A DNA stretch of 33,441 bases from positions 1 through 33,441 of IMG/VR virus record IMGVR_UViG_3300038701_000613; one strand, given 5' to 3'. Position numbers and translations under genes: made by a program. Positions 3,951-27,341 of this stretch are shown piece by piece; the stretch's first letter is position 1, and the number at the start of each line of letters is the position of its first letter. Below the pieces are notes generated by a model that worked only from the letters and a program-made list of their open reading frames with translations, was not told where the DNA came from and ran no database searches. The DNA comes from a virus.

Positions 3951-3959
3951 AGTATAAAT

Positions 3960-5120: not shown

Positions 5121-5121
5121 T

Positions 5122-5604
5122 TTATACGCTTATTTTTTTTGCTAAGTTGAATAATTCTGTATTTATTTCTTCGGATAATATTTCTATTAATTTACTATTT
5201 ATTTTAGCCGTGTTGTTTTCGGCAACAAATTGAATCCAATCTGTTCTTCTTCCGTTATTAGAATATTTATAACTCCCACTAGTTGGCGTTCCTTCTTGAA
5301 ATATCTTTTGTTGTATAGCGTACGCTGCATTTTTAATCTCCTTTTCACCACTTGCAATACCTTTAACTTCGACCCATTTTATAAGGTTGTTAATAGGTAC
5401 GTATCTACCTGCTTTCGTTCCAGTGTCTAAATACTTGCCATAATCTAAGCCCTCAAAAACTATCTCGTAGCCTGCCGTTGTTCTCTTTATTTCGTATTTA
5501 ATCGAATCCAATAAGTCGCCTGTTGCCACATGGTCTTGACCACGTAACTCATTAATAAATTCATCCTTTAAAAAGTCGGCTAATATTTCTAGTTGTTCTC
5601 TCAT
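5122..5604 (-). CDS. HK97 gp10-like head-tail or tail completion protein (160 aa)
   Basis: The N-terminus is a helix of the form LxxxLKDEFINELR followed by a VATGDLLDSIKYE segment. This 'tGxLrrSi' pattern, then a beta pair with GLDYGKYLDTGTK, is typical of the HK97 gp10 family, which includes minor tail and head-tail joining proteins. The size fits that family. The start codon overlaps the stop of the preceding 165-aa gene at 5604, indicating translational coupling, and the next tail gene follows with one base between. It probably acts in joining the head to the tail or in tail completion. Confidence 0.7.
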   Translation of the reverse strand: MREQLEILADFLKDEFINELRGQDHVATGDLLDSIKYEIKRTTAGYEIVFEGLDYGKYLDTGTKAGRYVPINNLIKWVEVKGIASGEKEIKNAAYAIQQKIFQEGTPTSGSYKYSNNGRRTDWIQFVAENNTAKINSKLIEILSEEINTELFNLAKKISV

Positions 5605-6101
5605 TAATAACTAAATGTACCTTTTGTGCATGAACTTGGCGCAACCACTGTTACATTCTCCATCAACTGCACTACTTTGTCATTGTGCATTTCGTAATAA
5701 CCGAAAAACCCGTTATTTGTAAATCCTTTTATATGATACCCTGTTGCGCTTTCGTGTATAAAATACCTTTGGCATTCGCCTAGATACTGTTCTGCAATCG
5801 TTTGTATTTCAGCTTGCTTAGTCTGTAATTCAACACTATTCTTTTTATCCGTTAAAGTGTATTTGTCATAGAAAAACACCTTAAAACTATACTCCTTTTT
5901 AATAGGTAGGTATTCTGAATCGTCGCCCTCTCTCGCTTGTAAATTAGTGAAGTCTGGTTGGCAATCAATTAATATACAAGGGTATTGCAGTCTAGGGTTG
6001 CCATTTAAGTCAAAAGGCTTTCCGTATATCACTTGGTTAACACTACTAAAAGCATCTGCCACCGTTTTAAATACCGTCCAAATTTCGTCTACTTGTGCCA
6101 T
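5604..6101 (-). CDS. Candidate tail terminator/completion protein (165 aa)
   Basis: This small mixed alpha/beta protein has an N-terminal helix, a YPCILID strand near residue 40, and a FKVFFYDKYTL strand near residues 73-83. The arrangement is like tail terminator proteins, which cap the tail tube. It begins one base after the stop of the -1 frame extension of the upstream gene and overlaps the start of the gp10-like gene. The tail terminator role is inferred from size and from the usual gp10/terminator pairing. Sequence similarity alone does not establish it. Confidence 0.45.
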   Translation of the reverse strand: MAQVDEIWTVFKTVADAFSSVNQVIYGKPFDLNGNPRLQYPCILIDCQPDFTNLQAREGDDSEYLPIKKEYSFKVFFYDKYTLTDKKNSVELQTKQAEIQTIAEQYLGECQRYFIHESATGYHIKGFTNNGFFGYYEMHNDKVVQLMENVTVVAPSSCTKGTFSY

Positions 6102-6102
6102 T

Positions 6103-6360
6103 TTATTGGTTGTTTACTATATTTAATTCAAATAATCTAAGTACGTCCATTGCTCGTTTTTCTTTTACTCTTTCCAATCCAACACCATATACTTGTAGTT
6201 TAGCGACTTCCATTTCAACGATAGCCCAAAAGTTATTTCGCTGAATAGCTTTAGCAATTTCTCCTTTACTATCATTTTGTTGGCTTTTAATAGATTGTGC
6301 GCTGACATCTTTTCCGTATAAAACTGGAAAAAACTTTTCCATTTGTCTACTAACTGAACA
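6103..6360 (-). CDS. Probable -1 frameshift extension of the 268-aa gene (85 aa)
   Basis: After the T9 run a -1 shift gives a continuous 289-aa fusion, in which codons 1-204 of the upstream frame are followed by CSVSRQMEKFF and so on to the stop at 6103. The extension has balanced composition, with a segment EVAKLQVYGVGLERVKEKRA that reads like a normal helical protein. It ends one base before the next start (6101). The only ATG codons in this frame upstream of the slip are at the very edge of the run, so independent initiation is unlikely to give the full domain. A homopolymer miscount in the assembly would also explain the pattern. Confidence 0.6.
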   Translation of the reverse strand, partial: CSVSRQMEKFFPVLYGKDVSAQSIKSQQNDSKGEIAKAIQRNNFWAIVEMEVAKLQVYGVGLERVKEKRAMDVLRLFELNIVNNQ

Positions 6361-6971
6361 AAAAAAAAGTAGCATGACCATGCAGTAAGGCTATCTAAAG
6401 AATAAAATTCTTTTGCCCGTCTGCTTATCGCTTCGTCGCTATTATCATTGTTATCAATATATAACACCGCCAATAATTGAACTAAACAATCAACAGTTGA
6501 CTGGTTAATATCCTTCTGTATTTGTTGGGTAAGCATATTAGATAACTTCCATTGATTAAAAGTACCCTCGCCAAACATTATAGCAGCACCCGAAATAGTT
6601 TGAGTATCTTTCACTAATTCGTACCTGCTTCCGTTTAGCTTAAATTCGCTAATCTTTGCGTATTGATTAGGTTGATAAATAAACTTCTTGCAATGATCGT
6701 ACAAAAACTCAATGGATAAATCCTGCGCCCCTTCAACCCTAACTAACTTTAATACCTCAATATCAATATCACTAAACAAGGCTATCCAGTTAATTTTGAA
6801 GTCAAGCAGTTTACTTTGCTTAACCTCTTTAGTATCATCCTCTAAATACGCTTTTAAATCAAAAGGTAACCCATCTAGGTATTTATAAGCTTTTTTCAAG
6901 GTGTTCAAATCCACCTCGTTAAATTCGCTTTTTAGCTTATGTTTTTTGTTGTTTATTTTTAGTTTTAGCAT
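6165..6971 (-). CDS. Possible tail assembly chaperone-like protein, zero-frame product (268 aa)
   Basis: The gene starts at 6971, overlapping the end of the glycosyltransferase-like gene by 7 bp. The first 204 codons look like an ordinary soluble, mostly helical protein. Codons 202-204 are three Phe codons forming a run of nine T on the coding strand. Beyond them two frames are open: this one to 6165 (64 more residues, K/L/F-rich) and the -1 frame to 6103. The -1 frame ends one base before the next gene, whereas this frame leaves a 63-bp gap, so the frameshifted product may be the main or an alternative form. Dual products made by -1 slippage are known for tail assembly chaperones (lambda G/GT type). 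This gene lies well upstream of the tape measure gene, so the chaperone role is only a suggestion. Confidence 0.5.
   Translation of the reverse strand: MLKLKINNKKHKLKSEFNEVDLNTLKKAYKYLDGLPFDLKAYLEDDTKEVKQSKLLDFKINWIALFSDIDIEVLKLVRVEGAQDLSIEFLYDHCKKFIYQPNQYAKISEFKLNGSRYELVKDTQTISGAAIMFGEGTFNQWKLSNMLTQQIQKDINQSTVDCLVQLLAVLYIDNNDNSDEAISRRAKEFYSLDSLTAWSCYFFFVQLVDKWKSFFQFYTEKMSAHNLLKANKMIVKEKLLKLFSEITFGLSLKWKSLNYKYMVLDWKE
6360..6368 (-). other. Slippery T9 run, candidate programmed -1 frameshift site
   Basis: On the coding strand the sequence is TAC TTT TTT TTT GTT. It satisfies the X XXY YYZ rule for simultaneous slippage, because a one-base retreat re-pairs both tRNAs perfectly. Both downstream frames are open for about 65-85 codons. 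Confidence 0.6.
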
Positions 6972-7867
6972 AGTATTGCTGCTCCTTTTTTAATTAATAC
7001 CATTGCTTGATGGCCAGATACTATGAATACGTCGCCTTGTGGCATATGCTTGCTCTTTCCTGTCCCTGCAATATGATATTCTTTGTTTAAATCTTCGGGG
7101 TATTTAAGGCTTTCAGCCATTTCTTTTTGCTCGTCGCTAGGCTCAAATATCTTACTAAGTTTATCCAAATCCCTTAGCACGTTTACTTTGTGTTTAGTAA
7201 ATAGCTTCCTATCTACTTCTTGTCCTATATCAACTATATCCTTTTTAGTAATGTTAACTGTATGCTTCACATCTACTAAAAACCCTCCTATACTTTCTAG
7301 GGAAACGCTATCAAACTCAATACCTTTAGCTTCCATGAATACTTGATTATTCCTGTCTAGCCCCTTATTTGCAACTCCTTGCCATCCTTTAAAGTTTACT
7401 TTATCTAGTACGCTTCTAGGAAAGAAACGACCAGCACCGTAAGACTTTATACCTGTATTATAGTGGCTTAACTTCTTGTTGTGCGTACCGTAGAAATATA
7501 AATCGGTAAAGCCTTGTACCTTTTTAGTGCCTTGCTCAATTAGATTGTAATAGTATTTAACTACGTTTTCATCAATGAAATCATCTGATCCTAGTATAAC
7601 AACTCCTTTAGGGTCAAAATCCTTACTAGCCTTTAGCATTGCATTATTCTTATTGCTTAAAGGTTTGTTCGGAGTTTCAATATATTTAAAACCAGCGCAA
7701 AGCTTTTTGCTTTTTTCTTTCTCGCTTCCTGCTACAACTACCCCGAAATCAAACTTCTTTTGTAATTTCCGAAGGTGCTTAAACATAACTTTTGTTAAGT
7801 CATGCCGTTGCCATATAGCTATAATAAAAACCAAATCCTTTTGCTGGCTTGTTAATATCTTTGACAT
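6965..7867 (-). CDS. GT-A fold glycosyltransferase-like protein (300 aa)
   Basis: The N-terminus carries a hydrophobic strand (DLVFIIAIWQR, residues 11-21) followed by a helix and a second strand (GVVVAGSE), as in family 2-type glycosyltransferases. VVILGSDDFID near residues 88-98 is placed like the DxD metal- and sugar-nucleotide-binding motif. A YGAGRFFPRSVL segment near residue 140 fits the acceptor half. The C-terminal 90 residues are charged and then end in a hydrophobic strand. The gene lies between the capsid terminator and the connector genes and overlaps the next gene by 7 bp. Its place inside the structural operon suggests it may modify a virion protein or the host surface; the substrate is unknown. 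Confidence 0.6.
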   Translation of the reverse strand: MSKILTSQQKDLVFIIAIWQRHDLTKVMFKHLRKLQKKFDFGVVVAGSEKEKSKKLCAGFKYIETPNKPLSNKNNAMLKASKDFDPKGVVILGSDDFIDENVVKYYYNLIEQGTKKVQGFTDLYFYGTHNKKLSHYNTGIKSYGAGRFFPRSVLDKVNFKGWQGVANKGLDRNNQVFMEAKGIEFDSVSLESIGGFLVDVKHTVNITKKDIVDIGQEVDRKLFTKHKVNVLRDLDKLSKIFEPSDEQKEMAESLKYPEDLNKEYHIAGTGKSKHMPQGDVFIVSGHQAMVLIKKGAAILC

Positions 7868-7894
7868 AAGTAATATTGATAATTTCTATAAATA

Positions 7895-7930
7895 TATAAA
7901 AAAAGGGCGATACATAGTACCACCCCTTTT
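7895..7930 (-). terminator. Rho-independent terminator after the capsid gene
   Basis: On the - strand, AAAAGGG and CCCTTTT pair around a second stem GGTAC/GTATC with a TAT loop, followed by a T run. It lies 23 bp past the capsid stop and would limit read-through into the glycosyltransferase-like gene. Confidence 0.8.
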
Positions 7931-7952
7931 CTATCCAAAACTCAACCCTTTA

Positions 7953-9230
7953 TTAAGTCGTTTCTAAACTTGCTTTATCAGTAGCAAATGTACCTTTAAC
8001 AAAAGCAGTTCTATCGTTGTTCTTCACATAACAAACACCTCTCCACTCAGCGCGGATAGTTTTGTAGTTCTTAACAAAGTTATCAGCGTTGTAACCGATT
8101 TCGATAGTAATACCTTGCTTAGTAAGTACGTTCGCTTTAGTAAAATCCCCAATCAAGTAAGTACCAGCAGTTACTACTGTACTTTCAATAATTGGAATGC
8201 CATCTAACATCAACATACCAGCGCTTTCTACAAGTCTATCAACATAACGCTTATCAGTAGAAGAAACCTTGATTAACTTTAACTTAGCCACATCAATAGG
8301 GTTCATCATAATAGCGTTAGGTACAGACTGGTCTGCAACCTTAATCTGAGTAGAAGCCGCTACTAATACGTCAATCTCATTTGCATTATCTACAAATCCT
8401 ACTAAATCAGAAGGTGCGCTAAAAGCCGTAGCAACCGTGTAAATACCGTTTAAGTTAGGAGAGTTACCATCACCGCTATAAATACCGCTTTCAACCGCTT
8501 TCAACAATTCTCTAGTAAGTTCGTTGTTAATTTCAGCAGCCATGTAGGAAACATCGTCTAACATCTCATCGGTAACAGTAATGTACGCAGTTGTTTTCTC
8601 AACTTTCTGAGAACCTACCGTTAAATCAAAATCAATTTGATTCTTAGCACCACCCTCAGCAGTTTGACCAGCAGAACCGTCTTTGTTAGCTTGATAAACC
8701 CACTCAACTAAGTTTGAACCGATTGAACCAGTAGATACTAGGTCAAAGATTCTTACTTGGCGAGAAGCAACCGCATTAAGTCCGGGCACTCTAAATGCTT
8801 GAGGTACTTGGCCAGAAGTTACGTTATTGTCGATAGACATATCCCCAGCAGCTTTAACTGTGAACTTTACGTTATCCTGTGCGCTAGAAGAATACTTCAA
8901 TTTACTCAATCCCTCTTGCTTGTCTGATAAAGACTTAACAAGTGCAGCAGAAAAAGATTCTTCTTTAATAGTATCAGCACTTTTCTTGTCAGCGATTTTC
9001 TTAGATTCCTTTTTCAACAAATCTTTCAAAGCATCGTACTGCTCTTTTCTTTGGTCTGCTAACTCAGACTTCAATGCAGCAATATCTTCCTTAGATGCTT
9101 TATTCTCAATCTTAGCAGTCAACTCCGCTTCTCTTTTCTCATTGTACTCATTGTAAAGTCCTGCCTGCTCGTTTGCAGAAAGTCCCTCTAATTCTACGCC
9201 TTTTTCGGCTAAAAATTCACTAAATTTCAT
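7953..9230 (-). CDS. Major capsid protein, HK97 family, with N-terminal scaffold region (425 aa)
   Basis: The first 110 residues or so are a charged coiled coil (K, E, A, L), matching the delta/scaffold domain that HK97-type capsid proteins lose on maturation. From about residue 130 comes the HK97 fold: a GQVPQAFRVPGL segment, a RQVRIFDLVSTGSI segment leading into the E-loop region, an ETTAYITVTDEMLDD-like helix start, and a C-terminal strand region (YLIGDFTKANVLTKQGITIE). Length is usual for the family. The protease gene ends 11 bp before this start, and a strong terminator follows, which suits a highly made structural protein. Confidence 0.93.
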   Translation of the reverse strand: MKFSEFLAEKGVELEGLSANEQAGLYNEYNEKREAELTAKIENKASKEDIAALKSELADQRKEQYDALKDLLKKESKKIADKKSADTIKEESFSAALVKSLSDKQEGLSKLKYSSSAQDNVKFTVKAAGDMSIDNNVTSGQVPQAFRVPGLNAVASRQVRIFDLVSTGSIGSNLVEWVYQANKDGSAGQTAEGGAKNQIDFDLTVGSQKVEKTTAYITVTDEMLDDVSYMAAEINNELTRELLKAVESGIYSGDGNSPNLNGIYTVATAFSAPSDLVGFVDNANEIDVLVAASTQIKVADQSVPNAIMMNPIDVAKLKLIKVSSTDKRYVDRLVESAGMLMLDGIPIIESTVVTAGTYLIGDFTKANVLTKQGITIEIGYNADNFVKNYKTIRAEWRGVCYVKNNDRTAFVKGTFATDKASLETT

Positions 9231-13966: not shown

Positions 13967-14118
13967 GATTTTTTCTTTTCGTTTACTAATTTACTAACAA
14001 TTTGAGATCTACTTGACCATCCTTGTTTTTCTTTTACTGGATGGCCTTGCTCATTTACTTTAATGTAGGTGTTTATTCCGCTTTCTCGCTTTGTTTTTAA
14101 TTTCCAATTATCTTTCAT
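13963..14118 (-). CDS. Small basic protein (51 aa)
   Basis: The ATG at 14118 opens a short frame rich in K, N, S and Q, whose stop overlaps the next ATG. The segment QGWSSRSQIVSKLVNEKKK could be a short helix pair. Its start and leader are nearly identical to those of the 79-aa gene at 18800: 37 of 38 bases upstream match. This implies a shared control or recombination boundary. No family is recognised. Confidence 0.55.
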   Translation of the reverse strand: MKDNWKLKTKRESGINTYIKVNEQGHPVKEKQGWSSRSQIVSKLVNEKKKS

Positions 14119-14153
14119 AGTAACAAATTTGATATGGTTATTACACGGTTGTT
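14116..14153 (-). repeat. 38-bp leader repeat, copy 1
   Basis: Thirty-seven of 38 bases match 18798-18835. Each copy covers the start codon of a leftward gene and ends at a cassette-type AAC boundary. The segment upstream of each copy is unrelated: a TTTTACAAC element here and GCCACATAAC there. The shared part contains a sequence one mismatch from TAnnTTTG, so it may be a promoter. Confidence 0.85.
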
Positions 14154-14251
14154 GTAAAACATAGGCGGCTGTTCATCCGTACTTGAAGTCACAATCTGTG
14201 ACCACTGTTTCTGAATAAACGCTATACCTCACCGCCTACGAATTTTACAAC
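14151..14251. repeat. 101-bp imperfect palindrome, ORF-less cassette-like element
   Basis: The outer arms are GTTGTAAAA (14151-14159) and TTTTACAAC (14243-14251). The inner arms are TAGGCGG (14162-14168) and CCGCCTA (14232-14238). A third hairpin, GTCACA-ATC-TGTGAC, sits at 14188-14202. The ends match a 29-bp element at 19774-19802 that lacks the interior. No open frame of note is inside. It is bounded by GTT and AAC like the gene cassettes. Confidence 0.75.
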
Positions 14252-14291
14252 AAAGAATATAAGTAATGCAGTCGCTTGGGTCGCCTAAGCC

Positions 14292-14373
14292 AATTAACAC
14301 TCGTTGGGCTATACAGGTGCACCTGCCGAATGATACTGTATGAACTGCACTACTCATATTCAAAACGTTACCA
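14292..14373 (-). other. Degenerate attC-like segment after the 114-aa gene
   Basis: On the - strand it runs from a GGTAAC box, just past the gene's stop, to GTTAATT. Internal pairing comes from ATACAG/CTGTAT, with the perfect 12-bp palindrome CAGGTGCACCTG (14314-14325) in the loop. The start AACGTTTTGAATATG resembles the start of the attC-like site at 26073 (AACGTTGTGAATATG). The matching GTTACC box expected at the head of the cassette was not found. Confidence 0.45.
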
Positions 14374-14377
14374 AACA

Positions 14378-14722
14378 TTAAATAGGCTCGGTAAAACAAT
14401 CTTTAGTAATCACGTAATTATCATCTTCACATATCCACCAATCACCGCACCACTCATAAACAAGTACCTTTTTACCAGCATACTTTCTTATAAAATCTCC
14501 ATCATCTTCTATATTGTAGTGTTTATCTACACTATTAAGTAAAATGTTTTCTAAATCGGGACTTATCAAAACAAGTTTAGGTTTTCCTAAAACGTTCTCT
14601 AATTCAGAATAAGAAAAACGTTTGGTAACACTAAATAAACCCAATAAAAGAGTTTCTGCATCTCGTTCAGTTATCATACCTTCTTCAAGGTCTTGTGCTA
14701 TTTTTAAAATTTCTATTTTCAT
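14378..14722 (-). CDS. Hypothetical acidic protein, possible cassette gene (114 aa)
   Basis: The frame from 14722 encodes a soluble acidic protein. Its N-terminal helix (ILKIAQDLEEGMITERDAETLLLGLF) resembles a short helical domain, and a C-terminal beta segment has KKVLVYEWCGDWWICED. It lies alone between a 310-bp non-coding gap and attC-like sequence, with no overlap to other genes, unlike the tightly packed structural genes. Function is unknown. Accessory cargo is the best contextual reading. Confidence 0.55.
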   Translation of the reverse strand: MKIEILKIAQDLEEGMITERDAETLLLGLFSVTKRFSYSELENVLGKPKLVLISPDLENILLNSVDKHYNIEDDGDFIRKYAGKKVLVYEWCGDWWICEDDNYVITKDCFTEPI

Positions 14723-15032
14723 AATCTTTTACTGTATTTATTCTTAACGTTATGGTGCATTAAGAAATGTCAACTGTCCATAATATTTTCATATCTACTA
14801 TATCAATCCATTTTTCAGTTATAACACATTCACAATCTAAATGAGAATAAAAAGCTTTTGTAACTTAATAAGTTTACTTTTTAAACTCAGAGTCAATGTA
14901 TTTGTTTACAATTTCATTTTTTATACAAACCCTTATTAGTAACAGAAAAAACCCTTGCAAAGCTAACAAGGGCAACAATCATTATAAAAAAATCCGTTTG
15001 AAGTAAAAGAACGTCTGTGCTTTGATTCTAAT
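14723..15032 (-). pseudogene. Gap with decayed coding remnants and a terminator
   Basis: No intact gene is visible in these 310 bases. On the - strand an open stretch at about 14758-14877 ends in WTVDIS and stop but has no usable start. Another frame just upstream ends in YIDSEFKK and stop. Together they look like the frameshifted tail of a lost gene. A CTTAA...TTAAG inverted repeat with GCACCATAAC lies at 14743-14764, and the terminator of the phosphoesterase gene occupies 14945-14973. Confidence 0.35.
14945..14973 (-). terminator. Rho-independent terminator after the metallophosphoesterase gene
   Basis: On the - strand CCCTTG and CAAGGG pair around a 9-base loop, followed by TTTTTT. It lies about 60 bp beyond the stop at 15033. 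Confidence 0.8.
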
Positions 15033-16211
15033 TTACAAAAAATAATGAGTCAAACTGGCAACTTGCCCAAATTCTTTACTGTGTATTTTCCCCTCGATGG
15101 CTTTAGGGCTTACATAACCATTTTTATGATGATATGAATCTGTGCCGCTTGGCGAGCGAATGTACTCAACTGTTACGCTATTAAAGTCCTTTCCTGCTGG
15201 TGTCCATTTCTTTTGCTTGTGATGTAGGTGGTGCAAGTACCAATATCTAAACTTACTTTTACTCCACATTATCGGCTTTTCTTGTGCCATTAACAATGGT
15301 AGCTTATCAAAGCTAGCCCCGTCCCCATGAGTTAACCCTATTAAACTGCTACCGTACAAGAAGTATTTATAATGGTTAATTGATACGTCAAATGTAATAT
15401 TCGGGTGGTTGTGGTAGTAACAGTAAATCGAATCGGCTAACATAAAGCCGCTCATGTAGTCATGGTTGCTCGGGCAATGAACTATGTGAACATCAGCAAT
15501 ACCCACTAAAGTATTCACACAATCAATATAAAGGTTTCTAGCTTCTAAATAATTTTCGTACCAATTACCCTCTGTATCTTGAGGCGTTCCTTTAGTTGTG
15601 CTTCTTGTGGTGTTATCCGTATGTAACACATCGTTACCAATGACAAATAATACCTTGTCAATGTCATAGCCATTAGCTTTGTGTATAACACCTTGAAGCC
15701 CCTCCAACGCCCTTTCTTTAGCTTTTACTACATTATAACTACCGCCCTCTATTTCACTAGCGTATTTACCTAAGTGCAGGTCGGCAATATCAATAATAAG
15801 GCAATGAGGGTCTTTTATTTTATCCCTTTTTAACTTGGTAAAGGTAGGCGCGTACCCTTTGGCGAACTCTCTAAAGTCCTCCATCATTTTATCAAAGGTT
15901 ATAAGATTTTTAGTTCTTACCTGTGCGCTTATATTCTTATTTTTAAGCCAAACTATACCCGTATCTGGTAAATCCTCTAAGTTAAATTCTTCCGCTACCT
16001 TTTCCCTTATCTCTTCGTTGCTTTCGTTACTAGGATTGTAAGTTATATTCTTATTAATGTACTTGCGTATTCCTCTGGGGGTTATATCCACTTTCTTAGA
16101 AGTAATATACTTATGTATGTAGCTACTACTCTTACCGCTTTCAACCATTAACTTAATTTCCTCGTAGTATGGCTCTAAGCAACTTTTCGCACCCCTTTTA
16201 TTACTTTTCAT
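15033..16211 (-). CDS. Calcineurin-like metallophosphoesterase with N-terminal DNA-binding-like region (392 aa)
   Basis: All metal-site motifs of the family are visible: D144-L-H146 in IADLHLGK, G192-N-D194, N249-H-D251, H295-G-D297 and a C-terminal HHLHH cluster at 327-331. The N-terminal 55 residues have a repeated-helix, basic pattern that could be a helix-turn-helix. The start overlaps the small terminase candidate by 11 bp. Phages often carry such enzymes near terminase or recombination genes, where SbcD-like nuclease or nucleotide phosphodiesterase roles are proposed. The substrate here is not known. Confidence 0.82.
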   Translation of the reverse strand: MKSNKRGAKSCLEPYYEEIKLMVESGKSSSYIHKYITSKKVDITPRGIRKYINKNITYNPSNESNEEIREKVAEEFNLEDLPDTGIVWLKNKNISAQVRTKNLITFDKMMEDFREFAKGYAPTFTKLKRDKIKDPHCLIIDIADLHLGKYASEIEGGSYNVVKAKERALEGLQGVIHKANGYDIDKVLFVIGNDVLHTDNTTRSTTKGTPQDTEGNWYENYLEARNLYIDCVNTLVGIADVHIVHCPSNHDYMSGFMLADSIYCYYHNHPNITFDVSINHYKYFLYGSSLIGLTHGDGASFDKLPLLMAQEKPIMWSKSKFRYWYLHHLHHKQKKWTPAGKDFNSVTVEYIRSPSGTDSYHHKNGYVSPKAIEGKIHSKEFGQVASLTHYFL

Positions 16212-16605
16212 CGCTTTCTTTTTCGCTTTCCGCCCAATTTATAATTGGTATGCCCTTATCTTTACCGCTTACATTTAAATCAACATCTTTTAAATCCCTT
16301 TGACCTAGATGCTGCTTACCTAACCATATTAACATAGTAGCATTCCTATCCTTAATAGCCGTATTTAACTGCGCTTCACTAAGTTTCATTTTCATATTAC
16401 TCAGTCCATTTTTATAGGCACGACAAAACTCTGTCATTGTTTCTGGCTTATCATGGTCGTATTCCATGTATCTATCTATTGTTCTTGTGCTCACTTGGAA
16501 ATACTCCGCCATCGTTTCGTATGTAGCTTTAAAATAGCCCATTAACTTTACTTGATCTAGGTCAACGTTTTCTAGTGCTTTTGGTCTACCGCCTTTATTA
16601 GCCAT
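16201..16605 (-). CDS. Candidate terminase small subunit, HTH protein (134 aa)
   Basis: The N-terminus GGRPKAL leads into a helix-turn-helix at about residues 25-55 (TYETMAEYFQVSTRTIDRYME). A helical segment follows, ending in MLIWLGKQHLGQRD. Both the opening GRPK and the closing LGQRD pattern are seen in small terminase and related phage HTH proteins, which recognise packaging sites. It overlaps the phosphoesterase gene. The large subunit lies downstream on the same strand, separated by phosphoesterase, cassette-like and ATP-grasp-like genes. It could instead be a regulatory HTH protein. Confidence 0.65.
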   Translation of the reverse strand: MANKGGRPKALENVDLDQVKLMGYFKATYETMAEYFQVSTRTIDRYMEYDHDKPETMTEFCRAYKNGLSNMKMKLSEAQLNTAIKDRNATMLIWLGKQHLGQRDLKDVDLNVSGKDKGIPIINWAESEKESDEK

Positions 16606-16658
16606 ATTTATTGCTTTTTCATAAATATAAAAAAAATCTATTAGTAAGTTTTAGGAAC

Positions 16659-16696
16659 AAAAAAATAGGGCAACCGCTTTCAACTGGCTACCCTAT
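16659..16696 (-). terminator. Rho-independent terminator after the ParB-like gene
   Basis: On the - strand ATAGGGTAGCC pairs with GGTTGCCCTAT across a 10-base loop, with a T run after it. It ends the upstream transcript and separates the accessory block from the terminase block. Confidence 0.78.
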
Positions 16697-16731
16697 CCGT
16701 ATCTATGATATGACAAGCAGGAGCAAATATA

Positions 16732-17232
16732 TTACTTTAGTTTGAAAAGTATATTATTTTCCTCCAATAGTTTTTCTATTTCTTCTTGTTCTTTTCTATC
16801 GGTTGGCGTTATTACTATTTTCTTTACCTTTTCTATTACACTTTGTTCTTCGGGCTCTTGTCCAAATATCTCTTCTGGAGTAAAACCCCATTCGATACAT
16901 TGTAACGGGTCGAAGTGATTGGCTAGTAAATCCATGTCAAAATGACCTGTATTCTTGTTAAGCCTAATATTCAATTCCTTCTCTTCTTCTATGGTTTTAT
17001 CTACATAAACAACTGGAACTTTATCATACCCTAGATCCTTGCAGACGTCCAGCCTCCTGTGGCCTCCTATAATAACATTAAATCTTTCTTTGTTGCTATT
17101 CACTACAATAGGCTCAACTATTCCAAACTTATAAATACTAAACATGATTTGTTGGTATTCGTCTTTAGTGCATCCTCTAGGGTTGTACTCTGCATCTTTT
17201 AATGAGGTAACCTCTATCATTTTAATTTGCAT
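16732..17232 (-). CDS. ParB/Srx-fold protein (166 aa)
   Basis: The N-terminal 90 residues fit the ParB N-terminal fold: MIEVTSLKDAEYNPR with NPR at 17-19, a helix, then IVEPIVVNSN and IIGGHRRLDVCKDLGY with GGHRR at 56-60. The last is the counterpart of the GERRxxA CTP/phosphate-binding motif. The C-terminal half is acidic and helical, without the ParB DNA-binding HTH. Such single-domain phage proteins are often found with terminase or methylase genes, and some have nuclease or ATPase activity. The exact role here is unknown. Confidence 0.75.
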   Translation of the reverse strand: MQIKMIEVTSLKDAEYNPRGCTKDEYQQIMFSIYKFGIVEPIVVNSNKERFNVIIGGHRRLDVCKDLGYDKVPVVYVDKTIEEEKELNIRLNKNTGHFDMDLLANHFDPLQCIEWGFTPEEIFGQEPEEQSVIEKVKKIVITPTDRKEQEEIEKLLEENNILFKLK

Positions 17233-17265
17233 GATTAATCTGTTTTAGGATGTATTTTTTTGGTT

Positions 17266-17568
17266 TTATATCGGATAATAAGTTAAATCAAACGCAAAGA
17301 ATATTTCCCCTATCTTTTTATCTCTTTGCCAAACTTCTTTAACTATTTTACCTGCTTGGTTAGATTGCTTAATGTATATTCCTCTCCATTTTAGTTTCCC
17401 AATAGTTACTTCATCTTTTATTTTGGGTATAGCGTGTTCTTTAACTATTGATAACAACTTTCTGTTTTCATATTCTTCCTGCGACATGGCAATTTGATTA
17501 ATTGACTCTTGTAAAACATCAATTTCAAATTCTGGATAACCTGTAATAGTTATTTTTTTCGGTTTCAT
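17266..17568 (-). CDS. Hypothetical protein (100 aa)
   Basis: This small basic protein starts with a beta pair (KKITITGYPEFEIDVL), has a helix near residues 20-50, and a C-terminal beta region (KLKWRGIYIKQ, GEIFFAFDLTYY). It lies in a run of leftward small genes with short gaps. No family or catalytic motif is seen. Confidence 0.5.
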   Translation of the reverse strand: MKPKKITITGYPEFEIDVLQESINQIAMSQEEYENRKLLSIVKEHAIPKIKDEVTIGKLKWRGIYIKQSNQAGKIVKEVWQRDKKIGEIFFAFDLTYYPI

Positions 17569-17575
17569 ATTCTAT

Positions 17576-17974
17576 CTAATTTTTCAAATTAAACTTCATT
17601 GCATATGATAATAAAGGTGTTAAATCCAAGCCTCTCTCTTCTGCTTCTTGGAGGGTTATGACGCTAAAAAGTCCATTATCCTCTTGAAATTCAATGTCAT
17701 TACCAAAACAAATAGTCAACTCTACAGACCCTGTTGTATGTTTTCTAACTATAAAATACGGAAACACGTCTTTCAAGTCTTGTTCTTTTCGTTCTTGGTA
17801 GGGTTGCCAGTCGTAGCAGCCTATTTCCCAAGTAAAATAATTCCCTTTTTCATCAACACCCTCAAAATGTTTAATGCCGATACAAGTTATTTGTGCAAAC
17901 TCATTTTTATTCCATGCGTAAGACGTTATTTTATCCCCTACCTTAAACTTCTCGTTAAATTCTTCTGTTGTCAT
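17576..17974 (-). CDS. Hypothetical protein (132 aa)
   Basis: The N-terminus (FNEKFKVGDKITSYAW) resembles a small beta-barrel entry. The middle is aromatic (YFTWEIGCYDWQPYQ) and the C-terminus has a helix EAEERGLDLTPLLSYAMKF. It is soluble, with no signal peptide. It sits between the VRR-NUC and 100-aa genes on the same strand. Function is unknown. Confidence 0.5.
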   Translation of the reverse strand: MTTEEFNEKFKVGDKITSYAWNKNEFAQITCIGIKHFEGVDEKGNYFTWEIGCYDWQPYQERKEQDLKDVFPYFIVRKHTTGSVELTICFGNDIEFQEDNGLFSVITLQEAEERGLDLTPLLSYAMKFNLKN

Positions 17975-18014
17975 TTTATTTGTTTTTAGTGAAATTAATA
18001 TTATACTTTCATTT

Positions 18015-18389
18015 TTACAAGTAGAGTTTATCTATTGTTTTTTTAAAATCATCAAATGTGTATATTACTTCCGTGTAATATCCTACTTCGTCCAAGTCTT
18101 TAAGCCATTGTTTTTGCTCTTTGGTAGGGTAGTTTTTTTTACCACTTTCGTAAATTACTTTTAACTCTATTGCGCATCCATGATAATTTTTAGGCGGTGT
18201 AATTATAAACAAATCTGGAAATCCTTTAGTTCTTTTACCCCCTATGTAATTCATTTTCTTTTGCTCCCACATTGTGCGCTTACCTTCATTGGGCGAATGA
18301 ATCCATTTAAGCTTTGGATATGCTAGGAGCAGGTATTTAACGCAATTAGCTTGCAATATATCCTCTTTAGTGTAATATGATCTTTTCAT
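18015..18389 (-). CDS. VRR-NUC domain nuclease (124 aa)
   Basis: This is a compact PD-(D/E)XK nuclease of the VRR-NUC type. Gln13 lies in the first helix, HSPNEG is at 31-36, GFPDLFI has Asp59, and AIELKV has Glu75 and Lys77, giving the catalytic D-(E)xK set. The length is standard for the stand-alone phage form. It probably resolves branched DNA during replication or packaging. Its start overlaps the stop of the 54-aa zinc-binding-like gene by 4 bp. Confidence 0.87.
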   Translation of the reverse strand: MKRSYYTKEDILQANCVKYLLLAYPKLKWIHSPNEGKRTMWEQKKMNYIGGKRTKGFPDLFIITPPKNYHGCAIELKVIYESGKKNYPTKEQKQWLKDLDEVGYYTEVIYTFDDFKKTIDKLYL

Positions 18390-18550
18390 TTATGTTTTTG
18401 TTTTTCGTATTCGATGCAGGAACAAATGTAATCCCATTCACATACATTACACCTGCTGAACTCTACTTCTATCTCTTGACCACATTCAATACAGTTATTA
18501 GTTGTTTCTTTAGGGTCAAATATTAGCCGATATTGTCTAGGTGGTTCCAT
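18386..18550 (-). CDS. Small cysteine-rich, zinc-ribbon-like protein (54 aa)
   Basis: The frame from 18550 encodes CIEC at residues 20-23, CNVC at 34-37 and CSC at 43-45. Two CxxC pairs eleven residues apart are typical of a small zinc ribbon. The stop overlaps the ATG of the VRR-NUC gene as ATGA, so the two are probably translated together. It could help the nuclease bind DNA, but this is inferred only from coupling. Confidence 0.6.
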   Translation of the reverse strand: MEPPRQYRLIFDPKETTNNCIECGQEIEVEFSRCNVCEWDYICSCIEYEKQKHK

Positions 18551-18560
18551 ATTTAAGCCA

Positions 18561-18800
18561 TTAAAAAGGCAGGTTGCTTTCTTTAATACCTTTAACAGCC
18601 ATTAATTGACCGCCTATCTCTATTTTTCTATACTGGTTAGATGTTCTTATTCCTGTTGGTGTTTTGTTTTCCTTTCTAGCCATATTAGAAATAGTAAGAA
18701 TATCAATTTTGTTACTGCAAATATCGAGTATTGCCAATAACTGTTCTTGAGTTAGATTCTCATAATCCAGTATTTTCAGTATTTCCGTAAATTTCTCCAT
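18561..18800 (-). CDS. Hypothetical small helical protein (79 aa)
   Basis: The first 45 residues form leucine- and isoleucine-rich helices (EILKILDYENLTQEQLLAILD) and the remainder is polar with a TPTGIRTSNQYRKIEIGGQ segment. The start and leader (18798-18835) are nearly identical to those of the 51-aa gene at 14118. It stands at the downstream end of the 18.8-19.8 kb cassette array. No family is recognised. Confidence 0.55.
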   Translation of the reverse strand: MEKFTEILKILDYENLTQEQLLAILDICSNKIDILTISNMARKENKTPTGIRTSNQYRKIEIGGQLMAVKGIKESNLPF

Positions 18801-18835
18801 AGTAACAAAATTGATATGGTTATTACACGGTTGTT
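18798..18835 (-). repeat. 38-bp leader repeat, copy 2
   Basis: Thirty-seven of 38 bases match 14116-14153. It joins directly to the AAC end of the 75-aa gene cassette. The only mismatch is within the A/T run before the start codon. Confidence 0.85.
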
Positions 18836-18843
18836 ATGTGGCA

Positions 18844-19071
18844 TTACTTCCGTTTAGGTCGGTACTCTTTTATTATTTCAACAGGCTTATATTCGTATTC
18901 GGTTTTCAGAAAACCTGCTGTGATTATACTTATACGTTCGTCTGTACTTGCAAGTTCATTTACTCGGTTGTGCATTTCTTGTTCAGCATTTTCTTCAAAA
19001 AATTCCACTTGAGTACCACCACCACAATCTGGATAATCGTCAATTTCGTACACTAAAATATATTTTGCCAT
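18844..19071 (-). CDS. Cassette-type hypothetical protein (75 aa)
   Basis: The ATG at 19071 is preferred over a GTG further upstream, because the GTG lies inside the cassette boundary repeat. The protein has a short strand (KYILVYEID), an acidic middle and a C-terminal region rich in K, E, Y and P. The gene is enclosed by a perfect 10-bp inverted repeat: GTTATGTGGC at 18833-18842 and GCCACATAAC at 19082-19091. Such complementarity between the two ends is expected of an integrated integron cassette. Function is unknown. Confidence 0.6.
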   Translation of the reverse strand: MAKYILVYEIDDYPDCGGGTQVEFFEENAEQEMHNRVNELASTDERISIITAGFLKTEYEYKPVEIIKEYRPKRK

Positions 19072-19084
19072 AATTAAAAACGCC

Positions 19085-19215
19085 ACATAACACTGTACAT
19101 AGCAAATAGCCGTGTTCGTGGACTTTTTGAAACTATTTGCCTGTTATTAAATTTGTTTACTTTTTTCATTGTCTGTGCTTAATCTCGGCTACTTGCCATA
19201 TACTCAACGTTAGCC
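19085..19215 (-). other. attC-like recombination site, 131 bp
   Basis: Read on the - strand it opens with GGCTAAC, overlapping the stop of the 73-aa gene, and closes with GTTATGT. The internal arms at 19187-19203 and 19095-19111 are 17 bases each with 14 matching, giving a long imperfect stem. About 75 bases form the loop. Order, size and imperfect pairing match attC sites of integron cassettes, although the boxes do not fit RYYYAAC/GTTRRRY at every base. Confidence 0.6.
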
Positions 19216-19431
19216 ACAATTAATTTCTTTTAGGGTTTCATACACATTCATAAAGTTAATATCTCTTAATTGGCACTCTGGATAATTATATTTTAGTTGC
19301 TCAATAAAAGAAATCAACAGTTCCCCATTTGGGTGGCTAACAATAAATAAGCGGAATATAGCTTCTACACTATCTATTTCTTTTCCGTTTTCTTTGTAGT
19401 CTTGTAATATATTCATCAGTTCATCTTCCAT
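19210..19431 (-). CDS. Cassette-type hypothetical protein (73 aa)
   Basis: This small acidic helical protein (ELMNILQDYKENGKEIDSVE, later LLISFIEQLKYNYPE) has a leucine and isoleucine spacing that suggests a compact helical bundle. The stop codon lies inside the GGCTAAC box of the following attC-like site. Upstream, only 33 bases separate it from the preceding gene, and no complete attC is present there. It resembles small immunity-type proteins in size and charge, but no family is recognised. Confidence 0.55.
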   Translation of the reverse strand: MEDELMNILQDYKENGKEIDSVEAIFRLFIVSHPNGELLISFIEQLKYNYPECQLRDINFMNVYETLKEINCG

Positions 19432-19464
19432 AATACTCCGTTTATTAGTTTTCGTTGTGTGCCA

Positions 19465-19668
19465 TTAGTCCAGCACCTCAATAATCAATTTTGCTTTAAA
19501 TCGTTTCTTGCTTACAATCTTATCATCAGCACCAAATAACTTTTGCATACTGTCAGCATCTTCGTTCTTAACAGTTTCAAACATATTTTCAAGCCCTTGC
19601 ATAAGTTCTCGCATAAGCAAAAGTTTATTAGCCTGTTGTCCTTTTTGTATTTCAATTTCGTTTGTCAT
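19465..19668 (-). CDS. Cassette-type hypothetical helical protein (67 aa)
   Basis: The ATG at 19668 is preferred to the one at 19695, which lies in the boundary repeat and would add nine residues encoded by it. The protein is predicted helical, with LLLMRELMQGLENMFETVKN and a basic C-terminus KKRFKAKLIIEVLD. A perfect 10-bp inverted repeat encloses it: GTTGTGTGCC at 19454-19463 and GGCACACAAC at 19684-19693. Function is unknown. Confidence 0.6.
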   Translation of the reverse strand: MTNEIEIQKGQQANKLLLMRELMQGLENMFETVKNEDADSMQKLFGADDKIVSKKRFKAKLIIEVLD

Positions 19669-19686
19669 CTTTCTAAAATTAACGGC

Positions 19687-19782
19687 ACACAACATTGTAT
19701 ATAGTTAATGCACCAAGTTACGTTAGTGCTTAATTTAAGGTTTGTTGGTAGGCGCACTAACCATATACCTACCGTTGTAAAA
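19687..19782 (-). other. attC-like recombination site, 96 bp
   Basis: On the - strand it runs from TTTTACAAC to GTTGTGT. The arms GTATATGGTTAGTGCGCC and GGTGCATTAACTATATAC pair at 15 of 18 positions around a loop of about 36 bases. An additional GTTAGTGC/GCACTAAC pair and a GGTAGG/CCTACC pair lie within. This imperfect long hairpin between GTT/AAC boxes is the layout of attC. Confidence 0.6.
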
Positions 19783-19802
19783 CATTAAAACGATTTTACA
19801 AC
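19774..19802. repeat. 29-bp palindromic element, deletion form of the 14151-14251 element
   Basis: It consists of GTTGTAAAA, an 11-base spacer and TTTTACAAC. The ends and the outside flank toward 19820 match the 14.15-kb copy, which also has TTTTACAACAAAG followed by A/T-rich sequence. The 72-base hairpin interior is missing here. Confidence 0.7.
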
Positions 19803-19823
19803 AAAGGCTATAAATAATAAGGC

Positions 19824-20012
19824 TTAGGTTCGTGGTTCATTAGGCAAAGCCATCCACCAAGTTTCGTTCTCATTACTGTATTTAATCATTTTTGTGTCAA
19901 GTATGCTTATTGCCATACTCGATTGGCTTTCATTCATTATCCTGTAAACCAATATCTTTTCTCCATCAATTTCACAAGATGGCTTTCTGTCTTTTAATTT
20001 AATCCATTTCAT
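19824..20012 (-). CDS. Hypothetical protein, possible cassette gene (62 aa)
   Basis: This is a short protein with an N-terminal MKWIKLKDRKPSCEIDGEKI strand-loop and a C-terminal ETWWMALPNEP segment. The DRKP...G.KILVYRI pattern followed by WWMALP resembles the DUF551 type found in phages and accessory DNA, in which 'W..LP' closes the domain. That match is from memory and tentative. It is followed by the 29-bp palindromic element. Confidence 0.5.
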   Translation of the reverse strand: MKWIKLKDRKPSCEIDGEKILVYRIMNESQSSMAISILDTKMIKYSNENETWWMALPNEPRT

Positions 20013-20071
20013 AATTCAAAGTTTTGTGTTTCAAATCGCCTTACTATTCATAGCCAAACCGTTGTAGGTAA

Positions 20072-20344
20072 TTAAAGTGCCTTAACATAATCACCACATC
20101 TTAGGCATTTCTTCATAGCATAACCCTGTAAAGTACCTGCATTCATATATTGATGATGGCACTTTAACTGTTCGCTTCGCCCTACAACATTGTATAACTT
20201 TAATTGCTCTGTATGATATTCTTCAGCAATCATAACCATAGTGTCGGTGTAGTTATCTACAATGTCATTATCGTCTCTGCATTCATCAGGTAAAATATAC
20301 TTTACCATTTCACGCATATTGTCTATTAATCCTTGTTTTGTCAT
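20072..20344 (-). CDS. Hypothetical protein with C-terminal zinc-knuckle-like motif (90 aa)
   Basis: The first 60 residues are helical and acidic (DNMREMVKYILPDECRDDND). The end has H67-H68 and C81-L-R-C84 in KKCLRCGDYVKAL, a possible one-sided zinc site with Cys80. The stop is followed by CTACAACGGTTTGGCTATG, which resembles the start of Bacteroidetes intergenic cassette sequences, but no complete attC is seen. Function is unknown. Confidence 0.5.
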   Translation of the reverse strand: MTKQGLIDNMREMVKYILPDECRDDNDIVDNYTDTMVMIAEEYHTEQLKLYNVVGRSEQLKCHHQYMNAGTLQGYAMKKCLRCGDYVKAL

Positions 20345-25458: not shown

Positions 25459-25533
25459 TATTAAAAATCTTTAAAACAGATACAAAGTTGTAAAGGTTTG
25501 TATAAGAATTGAAGCTGTGAAAAATTACACAAG

Positions 25534-25592
25534 TTGTAACGTTTAGTATATGAAGCGTTGAGGCACGAAATGATTTATATACCGTGTTATGC
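25534..25592 (+). other. attC-like site at the head of the rightward cassettes, 59 bp
   Basis: It runs from TTGTAAC to GTTATGC. GTATAT and ATATAC pair as stem around an unpaired middle. A related sequence, AAGTTGTAAAGGTTTGTATAAG, lies about 65 bp upstream (from 25485), like a second, incomplete copy. Confidence 0.45.
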
Positions 25593-25613
25593 GTGTTTTA
25601 AAATTATAAGATT

Positions 25614-26000
25614 ATGGACAAAGAAAGTAAATTAAGAAAAGAATTGCAATTTAACACACCAAGGGTTGTGTATTTATATATCCTAGGACTAGAAAGAAAG
25701 CTAGAAGGAATTGAAAATTTACAAAGGTTTGATGATGTAGGGACAGAAGTAGAAGGCAGTAGTGAGCGTATTTACGATATTGACGGTAGTTGTCTTGATG
25801 CCGATAAGGTTATGGAGATAATTAATGAAAAAATACTCCCTGATTATGTTGATAATAACTCTAGGCGACCAGATAAATTGGGTATTTATAGTGTAGTAAA
25901 CAGTGACGATGAAAACCAAACAAGCTATTTCAATGGTAAAATTTGGGAGATTGATGTTGATAATGGCGAAAAGCCTGTTAAAAAATGGTTAGAATGTTAA
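25614..26000 (+). CDS. Cassette-type hypothetical protein (128 aa)
   Basis: This acidic soluble protein has an N-terminal helix (KLRKELQFNTPRVVYLYILGLERKLEG) and a beta-rich C-terminal half with YFNGKIWEIDVDNG. The gene stands alone between non-coding segments and is bounded by a perfect 9-bp inverted repeat: GTTATGCGT at 25586-25594 and ACGCATAAC at 26067-26075. A GCCACTAA...TTAGTGGC hairpin follows the stop at about 26032-26056. No family is recognised. Confidence 0.6.
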   Translation: MDKESKLRKELQFNTPRVVYLYILGLERKLEGIENLQRFDDVGTEVEGSSERIYDIDGSCLDADKVMEIINEKILPDYVDNNSRRPDKLGIYSVVNSDDENQTSYFNGKIWEIDVDNGEKPVKKWLEC

Positions 26001-26066
26001 TTTAATGGCAAAAATGAGTAATCCTATAAATAGCCACTAATTAGCGTTTAGTGGCAAAATATAGTT

Positions 26067-26138
26067 ACGCATAACGTTGTGAATATGTGGCGGCTTGTGT
26101 TGCGCCTGCGGCAAGCTGACATATATTTGTTGTTAGCT
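26067..26138 (+). other. attC-like recombination site, 72 bp
   Basis: ACGCATAAC opens and GTTAGCT closes the site. Outer pairs are TAAC/GTTA, with unpaired spacers next. Two stems follow: ATATGT/ACATAT and GCTTG/CAAGC. The loop is GC-rich (14 bases). The size, the paired end boxes and the unpaired spacers match attC. Confidence 0.62.
26100..26129 (+). promoter_or_regulatory. Bacteroidetes consensus promoter inside the attC-like site
   Basis: TTG at 26100-26102, a spacer of 19 bases and TATATTTG at 26122-26129 match TTG-N17-23-TAnnTTTG exactly. The next gene downstream is the methyltransferase at 26182. Confidence 0.65.
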
Positions 26139-26181
26139 GACTGGTGCGGAAAATTTAGAACAAACTTAAATAAAAGAACGA

Positions 26182-27264
26182 ATGATAGTAAAAGAAAAAA
26201 TAGGGGGGCTTTTTTTTGATTTAATAAAGGGAGATACCTTGATTGAAAATGAGAGCATAAAAAATGATAGTGTTGATTTAATATTGACCGATTTACCTTA
26301 TGGAACTGTTGAAGGGATTGGAGGCAGCGACACCATACAACACGGAATGAAAGGGAAAACAGAATGGGATAGCGTTATTGATACTGATAAAATAATGCAA
26401 CTTGCTGACCGAATACTTAGAAAAAACGGTAAAATGGTTTTATTTGCACAACAGCCGTTTACAACTGAGTTGATAACCAAAGCAATACCTAATTTACCAT
26501 TTAATTATGCTATGATTTGGGTAAAAGACCACTTTGCAAACGCTTTAACTGCAAAAAAAGCCCCTTTAAATTACTACGAAGATGTGTTGATATTTACAAA
26601 GCGAAACCCTAAACACGACAACACAGGTGAGAACCCAGTTAGGGATTATTTAGTTGCAGAAAAGAAGAAAAGCGGGTTAACAAATAAGGATTTTAACTTA
26701 ATGTTTTCTGAATATACTGGAAAAATAGGCTGTGTGGATAGGAGTGTTATTGAACACTACTGGGGTAAAGCTCAGTTTACTTTTCCAACACAAGAAATAT
26801 ATGAAAACGTATTGCAAAAAACTGGCTATTTTAAAAAGCCATACAGCTACATAGAGGAATTAGGAAAGCCATACAGACAAATGATAAACGAAAGATTAGC
26901 GAAAAAGCACCCTGCAATATTTAACCTATGGCAAGGTAAAAAATACAAAAGTAATGTGCTTAATTATAAAAAGGATTACGAAGGGTTACACCCGACACAA
27001 AAGCCTGTATTGCTTTTGGAAGATTTGATTAAAACCTTTAGTAACGAAGGTGATTTAGTAGTTGATTTAACTATGGGAAGCGGAAGCACAGGAGTTGCAG
27101 CCCGAAACACTAACCGTAATTTTATTGGCATTGAAAAAGAAGAAAAGTATTTTAATATAGCAGTAAGCCGAATAAAAGGAGCTGAACCAAACCCCAACGG
27201 TTTTGAAAAAACCGAAGCGGGCGGGCTTTTTTCTTTTACGGATGACCCCGATAAACTTGATTAA
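26182..27264 (+). CDS. DNA adenine N6-methyltransferase, motif IV before motif I (beta type) (360 aa)
   Basis: The catalytic motif IV is at the N-terminus as DLPY (residues 37-40), in place of the common DPPY. HPTQKP (270-275) is the usual motif before motif I. Motif I, binding S-adenosylmethionine, is DLTMGSGSTG (295-304), and NFIGIEKEEKYF follows. The order IV then I is that of the beta class. No partner restriction gene is adjacent. The gene is enclosed by GTTAGCTG (26132-26139) and CAGCTAAC (27285-27292) and has a promoter within the upstream attC-like site, so it seems to be cassette cargo. It may protect phage DNA from host restriction. Confidence 0.9.
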   Translation: MIVKEKIGGLFFDLIKGDTLIENESIKNDSVDLILTDLPYGTVEGIGGSDTIQHGMKGKTEWDSVIDTDKIMQLADRILRKNGKMVLFAQQPFTTELITKAIPNLPFNYAMIWVKDHFANALTAKKAPLNYYEDVLIFTKRNPKHDNTGENPVRDYLVAEKKKSGLTNKDFNLMFSEYTGKIGCVDRSVIEHYWGKAQFTFPTQEIYENVLQKTGYFKKPYSYIEELGKPYRQMINERLAKKHPAIFNLWQGKKYKSNVLNYKKDYEGLHPTQKPVLLLEDLIKTFSNEGDLVVDLTMGSGSTGVAARNTNRNFIGIEKEEKYFNIAVSRIKGAEPNPNGFEKTEAGGLFSFTDDPDKLD

Positions 27265-27284
27265 GTGAACGAATGTAGCACTTG

Positions 27285-27341
27285 CAGCTAACACTGAAAT
27301 AAGTGCAGTGCGTCAGTATTGCATCTTATGAAATGTTAAAA
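27285..27341 (+). other. attC-like recombination site, 57 bp
   Basis: The segment runs from CAGCTAAC to GTTAAAA. ATAAG-TGCA pairs with TGCA-CTTAT, with one extra T bulged on the right arm. A single extrahelical base of this kind sets strand polarity in attC sites. It is the last site before the converging terminators. Confidence 0.55.

Follow-up and report, generated by a model that had tools for sequence, protein, structure and literature searches.

A large IntegronFinder survey recorded In0 elements from the Bacteroidetes and one complete integron, that of Salinibacter ruber (PMC9024848). In phages, clusters of attC sites without integrase (CALINs) that carry methyltransferase cassettes have been described (Qi et al. 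2023, PMC9892861). The same study deals with the attC sites previously reported in Polaribacter phage P12002L, a cluster located in a virulent phage without integrase, one attC of which was recombined by IntI1 on the bottom strand only (PMC9892861). In that work, the phage sites were read as ordinary attC sites and their divergent directions were noted, but no link was made to a recombinase of the Bacteroidota. A further point of comparison is provided by the single tyrosine recombinases of the XerA/XerH type, which resolve dif-type double-stranded sites.

Here, we analysed a stretch of 33,441 nucleotides of viral DNA (IMG/VR record IMGVR_UViG_3300038701_000613, positions 1 to 33,441, hereafter the window). 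It likely contains integron-type cassette arrays without an integrase, an integron variant carried by a phage whose hosts are likely Bacteroidota bacteria; recombination itself is inferred. The resemblance to the IntI/attI/attC system is as follows: the arrays are made of mostly single-gene cassettes, the sites fold as R''-L''-loop-L'-R' with a GTT boundary, an attI-like site lies beside a tyrosine recombinase and complementary ends would meet in the circular cassette. The differences are that (i), the recombinase lacks the IntI insert, usually carries an extra N-terminal region and is co-directional with the cassettes and (ii), the core is not GTTRRRY and the arms, of 17-18 bp, contain two G.T wobbles and no extrahelical bases. 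The window satisfies the criteria for a phage CALIN (two or more attC-type sites, integrase absent), and our covariance model of the sites (R1) also matches the P12002L cluster; however, the sites found here form a separate family, the ORFs are inverted and one phage contig (L050) has its own recombinase. No description of such a system was found in the open-access literature that we searched (open-licence PMC papers only).

Cassettes and junctions of the window

The R1 model identified three arrays in the window, with six sites at E below 1e-5, and a structural scan added one long-loop site. The features are as follows (coordinates, strand, description).

14116-14150, minus: leader copy 1 (AACCGTGTAATAACCATATCAAATTTGTTACTATG), putative attI-like end of array 1, part of a 38-bp repeat; also the 5' region and start codon of a 51-aa phage gene (14118-13963)
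14151-14251, minus: ORF-less terminal cassette of 101 bp, ends GTTGTAAAA...TTTTACAAC, fold z -5.2
14237-14381, minus: attC-like hairpin site, R1 75.2 bits, E 1.8e-16
14378-14722, minus: cassette ORF of 114 aa that starts within the loop of the site upstream, no Pfam match; cassette ends GTTACCAAAC (about 14628) and GTTTGGTAAC (14371)
14615-14763, minus: weaker attC-like hairpin site, R1 46.5 bits, E 2.7e-9
18798-18832, minus: leader copy 2, putative attI-like terminus of array 2; a 79-aa phage gene (18800-18561) starts here
18833-19091, minus: cassette, ends GTTATGTGGC and GCCACATAAC, inverted repeat I21; ORF 18844-19073 from ATG, alternative GTG start at 19086
19077-19223, minus: attC-like hairpin site, R1 114.9 bits, E 2e-26
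19209-19341, minus: cassette with the 3' part of a 73-aa ORF (19431-19210), ends GTTAGCCAC and GTGGCTAAC
19327-19468, minus: weak attC-like hairpin site with an ORF start in its loop, R1 23 bits, E 0.002
19454-19693, minus: cassette with a 76-aa ORF, ends GTTGTGTGCC and GGCACACAAC, inverted repeat I23
19679-19788, minus: attC-like hairpin site of the GGTAGGTATATGGTTAGTGCGCC family, R1 97.5 bits, E 4.7e-22
19774-19802, minus: ORF-less mini-cassette of 29 bp, GTTGTAAAATCG..TTTTACAAC
19802-20061, minus: hairpin site whose long loop encloses a 62-aa ORF (19824-20012), arms GGCTATGAATAGTAAGG and CCTTATTATTTATAGCC
20061-20188, minus: cassette with the 3' end of a 90-aa ORF, ends GTTGTAGG and CCTACAAC, read from the sequence
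25526-25600, plus: attC-like hairpin site of the third array, R1 43.8 bits, E 1.3e-8
25586-26075, plus: cassette with a 128-aa ORF (25614-26000), ends GTTATGCGTG and ACGCATAAC
26061-26146, plus: attC-like hairpin site, R1 32.5 bits, E 8.5e-6
26132-27292, plus: cassette with a DNA N6/N4 methyltransferase gene (26182-27264; Pfam PF01555, E 9e-34), ends GTTAGCTG and CAGCTAAC

On the minus strand, ATGTTTTACAAC ends at 14151 and continues into AACCGTGTAATAACC (14150-14136), the same ATGTTTTACAAC ends at 19774 and continues into GGTAGGTATATGG, and GCCACATAAC, which ends at 18833, is again followed by AACCGTGTAATAACC (18832-18818). The partner switch thus lies immediately after AAC (GTT on the opposite strand). 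A preliminary description of the sequence had claimed sharp junctions with breakpoints at AAC, and this held at all three positions. Its proposal that one palindromic element occurs at both 14.15 kb and 19.77 kb failed: these are two different units, a structured unit of 101 bp (14151-14251) and a mini-hairpin of 29 bp (19774-19802), which have only arms of ~12 nt in common. Nor is the breakpoint independent of the inverted repeats, as had been argued; they are two faces of one site. The units had not been recognised as gene cassettes.

Several features of individual cassettes deserve mention. The ends of the 19454-19693 cassette recur with other ORFs in four other contigs (L047, L049, L051 and L052). 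The ORF-less terminal cassette has GTGAGGTATAGCGTTTATT in common with the ORF-less last cassette of L050 (about 3240-3350); both are ~100 nt long, fold strongly and contain a common 19-nt motif, and could conceivably be a structured RNA or an att accessory element. The 29-bp mini-cassette may be compared with a 38-bp mini-cassette at the array start in L223, a Chryseobacterium plasmid. Whole ORFs lie inside hairpin loops (spans of 218-294 nt) in the window (19802-20061) and at L047 3655, L049 7869 and L050 10416 (reverse-strand index), and ORFs that start in the loop, with translation continuing across the 3' hairpin arm, are seen in L053, L061 and L049 as well as at 14615-14763 and 19327-19468 of the window. 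The latter site has cognate arms on both neighbours. A junction without a stem at 19454 was considered and is probably wrong, because a weak site is present there with an ORF starting in its loop. The third array (25526-27292, plus strand) lies outside the region covered by the preliminary description; methyltransferase cassettes are also found in P12002L.

The small cassette ORFs had no match in Pfam, an Rfam search gave 0 matches at the gathering score and no tRNA was found. Blastn of the 14-21 kb region against phages and plasmids returned only a short exonuclease match, and one hairpin searched against the same sequences gave no match.

Site architecture and the exchange point

Complementary ends bound each ORF on the minus strand (e.g. 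GTTGTGTGCC...GGCACACAAC and GTTATGTGGC...GCCACATAAC, repeats I23 and I21), and an imperfect hairpin lies between two units, consisting of AAC, a spacer of ~5 nt, an arm NNNTATGNNNAGT..., the loop, an arm ...ATTNNNTATANNN, 3 nt and GTT. The site between two cassettes has the order R''-L''-loop-L'-R', and covariation and the R1 model show that this architecture with AAC/GTT cores is met. In 24 aligned sites, 97.5% of 526 cells are paired and compensatory changes occur in 12 of the 18 arm pairs; the aligned sites were chosen partly for pairing, so that the clean background and the conserved wobbles weigh more. The structural scan found 41 sites in selected loci (a number that includes a few reverse-strand duplicates and near-identical copies); 372 kb of other viral DNA yielded none that has both cores.

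A pattern derived from the window matched nine viral and two bacterial contigs. At eight loci, one hairpin is joined to differing upstream sequence, the right arm and 5' region being mostly kept while the ORF differs, and in several contigs the same hairpin and R' are followed by different ORFs ending TAATGGCACACAAC. The 12 copies of one hairpin family in viral contigs keep their own spacer and mostly their right arm (GTTGTGTGCC in 10), but their left arms are largely unrelated up to AAC. A match to GAGGTATAGCGTTTATT in L219 was dismissed as due to chance, since it lies in apparently coding sequence without R1 sites.

The abrupt break holds generally. Arms on opposite sides of the hairpin are unrelated (3.16 of 9 matches over 80 sites, 3.08 for random arms), whereas the arms on either side of one ORF complement each other, with 20 of 32 pairs reaching at least 6 of 9 against 7% at random. 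Because the arms of one site are unlinked and those flanking one ORF are cognate, the exchange point must be the AAC/GTT core, and the cassette boundaries are thereby shown. The arm linkage also rules out the classic reading on the ORF strand, in which the stem would be part of the preceding cassette.

The arms pair over their full length of 17-18 bp without bulges, with G.T wobbles at two positions. At the second wobble, 71 of 76 sites have G.T and none has G.C; in the rest of the arms, G.T accounts for 21 of 1140. Extrahelical bases are not met: strand asymmetry arises from the wobbles instead, the wobble-bearing R1 strand being the more stable in 57 of 63 cases. This replacement of extrahelical bases by fixed G.T wobbles looks new. 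The GTTRRRY consensus is not met either, the R' boxes of the window being GTTGTAA, GTTGTGT, GTTATGT, GTTACCA, GTTAGCC, GTTATGC and GTTAGCT.

Evidence for a fixed point comes from two Chryseobacterium plasmids, NZ_CP094530.1 and NZ_CP041688.1 (L222 and L223), which have a common backbone and recombinase. They are 95.8% identical through the recombinase and attI and unrelated from the next base: the conserved tract ends ...ATATAAACAAGTT (...GTAAGACATATAAACAAGTT) and breaks exactly after ACAAGTT, 107 bp past the recombinase gene. One plasmid then continues with AGCGGTAAG into a VOC-family gene and the other with GGGAAAAATCGCCC into a palindromic mini-cassette followed by Crp/Fnr and RidA genes. 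An attI beside the recombinase, with cassette insertion at GTT, is met on this break, although it concerns a single plasmid pair and R1 detected sites in L223 only. The preliminary description had proposed site-specific recombination at a fixed point, to be refuted if homologues lost identity gradually; the opposite is seen in these plasmids, and the proposal is supported as the best reading, recombination itself being inferred.

Bacterial arrays, their recombinase and the phage layout

At E up to 1e-6, R1 gave matches in 105 of the 197 Bacteroidia genomes and, in a second phylum, that of a Neomarinimicrobiota MAG (G002), in 19 of 61; site counts are low, as scoring was restricted to the best candidates of each genome. 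In bacteria, the sites are arrayed on the 3' side of the gene for a tyrosine recombinase (about 350-590 aa at array loci) that resembles IntI without its insert. The 20 best-scoring recombinase loci were taken without regard to sites (the true IntI of G148 and one locus retrieved earlier being excluded): eight of them contain R1 sites, 15 in total, which without exception lie 3' of the gene and have R1 on the opposite strand, and in nine of the 12 loci without sites the contig stops within about 3 kb on the 3' side. Nineteen random 17-kb stretches (323 kb, mostly from the same genomes) contained 0 R1 sites. Co-location of sites and recombinase in bacteria is thus shown. In the host, the attI is located immediately past the 3' end of the recombinase gene (L088, L089, L091 and the Chryseobacterium plasmids), recombinase and cassettes are co-directional and the latter have the classic ORF-site order (e.g. 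L088 and L091).

The array recombinases score 193-211 bits with TIGR02249, below its cut-off of 265. They lack the IntI insert, as judged from VchIntIA, whose residues 186-246 correspond to 19 residues, and from an alignment of array recombinases with true IntI. The best PDB match of an array recombinase is XerA (5hxy, E 8.4e-49) and scores of 210-221 bits are reached with NF040815 (cut-off 220), recalling the XerA/XerH-type enzymes; however, the tree places array recombinases together with IntI against XerD (100/99), the place of IntI inside this group being unresolved. The usual extra N-terminal region (~90 aa with an LPGAxWxxxxxxWxLP-like pattern, in L088, L089, L091 and others) has no Pfam match. 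In L091, the first cassette beside the recombinase (8102-8872) encodes a nucleotidyltransferase-like protein, judged from its sequence only. The sole true IntI in the 197 Bacteroidia genomes (L076, 422 bits) belongs to G148, which is not R1-positive.

Viral and bacterial cassettes differ in layout: the ORF begins at the site in the former and ends at it in the latter. ORF and site strands are the same in 28 viral cases and opposite in one, against two and 26 in bacteria (Fisher 8e-13; orientation classes drawn from 76 sites, partly from phage-seeded searches). The viral exception and one of the bacterial ones appear to be the same sites, which are palindromic, viewed from the opposite strand. 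This inversion of phage ORFs relative to the site looks new. In P12002L, R1 found four sites around two methyltransferases of the published cassette cluster, all with the phage layout; that the published attC sites are these R1 sites is inferred from position. The array of the phage contig L050 runs up to the 5' region of a recombinase belonging to this group (267 aa), which lacks the extra N-terminal region, and 1900-8021 of this contig contains six R1 sites at E below 1e-7 and one long-loop site. L050 is possibly a self-sufficient phage platform.

Proposed mechanism, alternatives and significance

In our model, a cassette consists of a short stretch of DNA whose ends (GTT...AAC) are complementary, plus one imperfect hairpin site, and on circularisation its two ends and hairpin would make one attC-like cruciform. 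By analogy with integrons, an integron-type tyrosine recombinase would bind the folded strand, probably the one that forms the G.T wobbles, and cut the AAC/GTT core; the cassette would then be joined either to another site or to an attI-like end, which would allow insertion, excision and reordering. No recombinase of this group is encoded in the window; its cassettes therefore probably move in trans, and the enzyme may be supplied by the host or by a co-infecting phage, which is inferred.

The attI-like end in the window would be the leader, located upstream of two phage genes with one array each. The two leader copies (14116-14153 and 18798-18835) form a direct repeat of 38 bp with 97% identity and the sequence AACCGTGTAATAACCATATCAA[A/T]TTTGTTACTATG, which extends through the ATG of two different genes. 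With up to two mismatches, AACCGTGTAATAACC is expected 0.06 times in the window and found three times, two of them exact. In IMG/VR, 42 stretches match the 15-mer core; none extends past it, and we consider these matches as due to chance. Both arrays end R''-AAC and are then followed by the leader. Its function as an insertion target is inferred from this position and remains unproven because the window does not encode such a recombinase and the search for close phage relatives via the exonuclease, the terminase and the 79-aa gene yielded no homologue with an empty site. Alternatively, the leader may be a phage promoter or operator duplicated before two genes, with arrays beside it by chance or by selection for expression. 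It stops at the ATG of both genes and a similar sequence (GTAATAAC..AAATTTGTAAC) precedes the homologue of the 79-aa gene in a relative (L217), which speaks for this view, but two arrays end exactly at the leader and the P12002L array likewise ends AAC then AAC (GGGTAAC followed by AACGGATAAAAC), before a gene adjoining ninG. We lean slightly against the promoter reading, which in any case is compatible with our explanation of the cassettes. Over 25 nt, the leader before the 79-aa gene also shows 88% complementarity with an internal part of that gene, at a distance of 84 nt (18692-18825).

For the arrays themselves, it could be argued that the hairpins are passive terminators or mRNA-stability elements and that the mosaic results from ordinary homologous or illegitimate recombination at repeats. 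The hairpins indeed adjoin ORFs, fold strongly and sit in 5' regions in phages, and phage genomes are mosaic. Yet each ORF has cognate ends on its two sides whereas the arms of a single site show no linkage, the plasmid homologues break to the base at GTT, arrays are consistently 3' of a specific recombinase group and a site of the P12002L cluster is recombined by IntI1 (PMC9892861), all of which makes this explanation very unlikely; part of the mixing may still stem from old homologous recombination between conserved hairpins. We find it equally hard to accept that these are classic integrons, that is, ordinary attC sites moved by ordinary IntI and merely acquired by Bacteroidota and phages. 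The R-L-loop-L-R architecture, the G/TT-type boundary and the activity of IntI1 on the P12002L attC site (PMC9892861) fit this view, but only one of 197 Bacteroidia genomes has an IntI above the cut-off and it is not R1-positive, the array recombinases lack the IntI insert and the cores depart from GTTRRRY, with G.T wobbles in place of extrahelical bases. The reading that we prefer, an integron variant, must itself accommodate phage ORFs inverted relative to the bacterial layout, R' cores off GTTRRRY and recombinases without the insert that fall below the TIGR02249 cut-off.

A bolder version, toward which the balance tips modestly, is that Bacteroidota and Neomarinimicrobiota carry a widespread, separate class of integron defined by fixed-wobble sites and an insert-less, IntI-related recombinase. 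Phages would join it with a pool of inverted-ORF cassettes, read with the phage transcript when upstream of a phage gene, and some would have their own recombinase at the array end.

Integrons are considered nearly absent from the Bacteroidetes, whereas matching sites occur in more than half of the sampled Bacteroidia genomes, several of them in arrays beside one recombinase group. How an integron enzyme can work in the absence of the IntI insert could be tested with this system. If it is functional, it would constitute a large, overlooked route of gene transfer among Bacteroidota and between them and phages, and phages could use it to swap small accessory genes such as DNA methyltransferases, a use that is inferred. 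Phages and their hosts may thus have one overlooked gene-swapping system in common.
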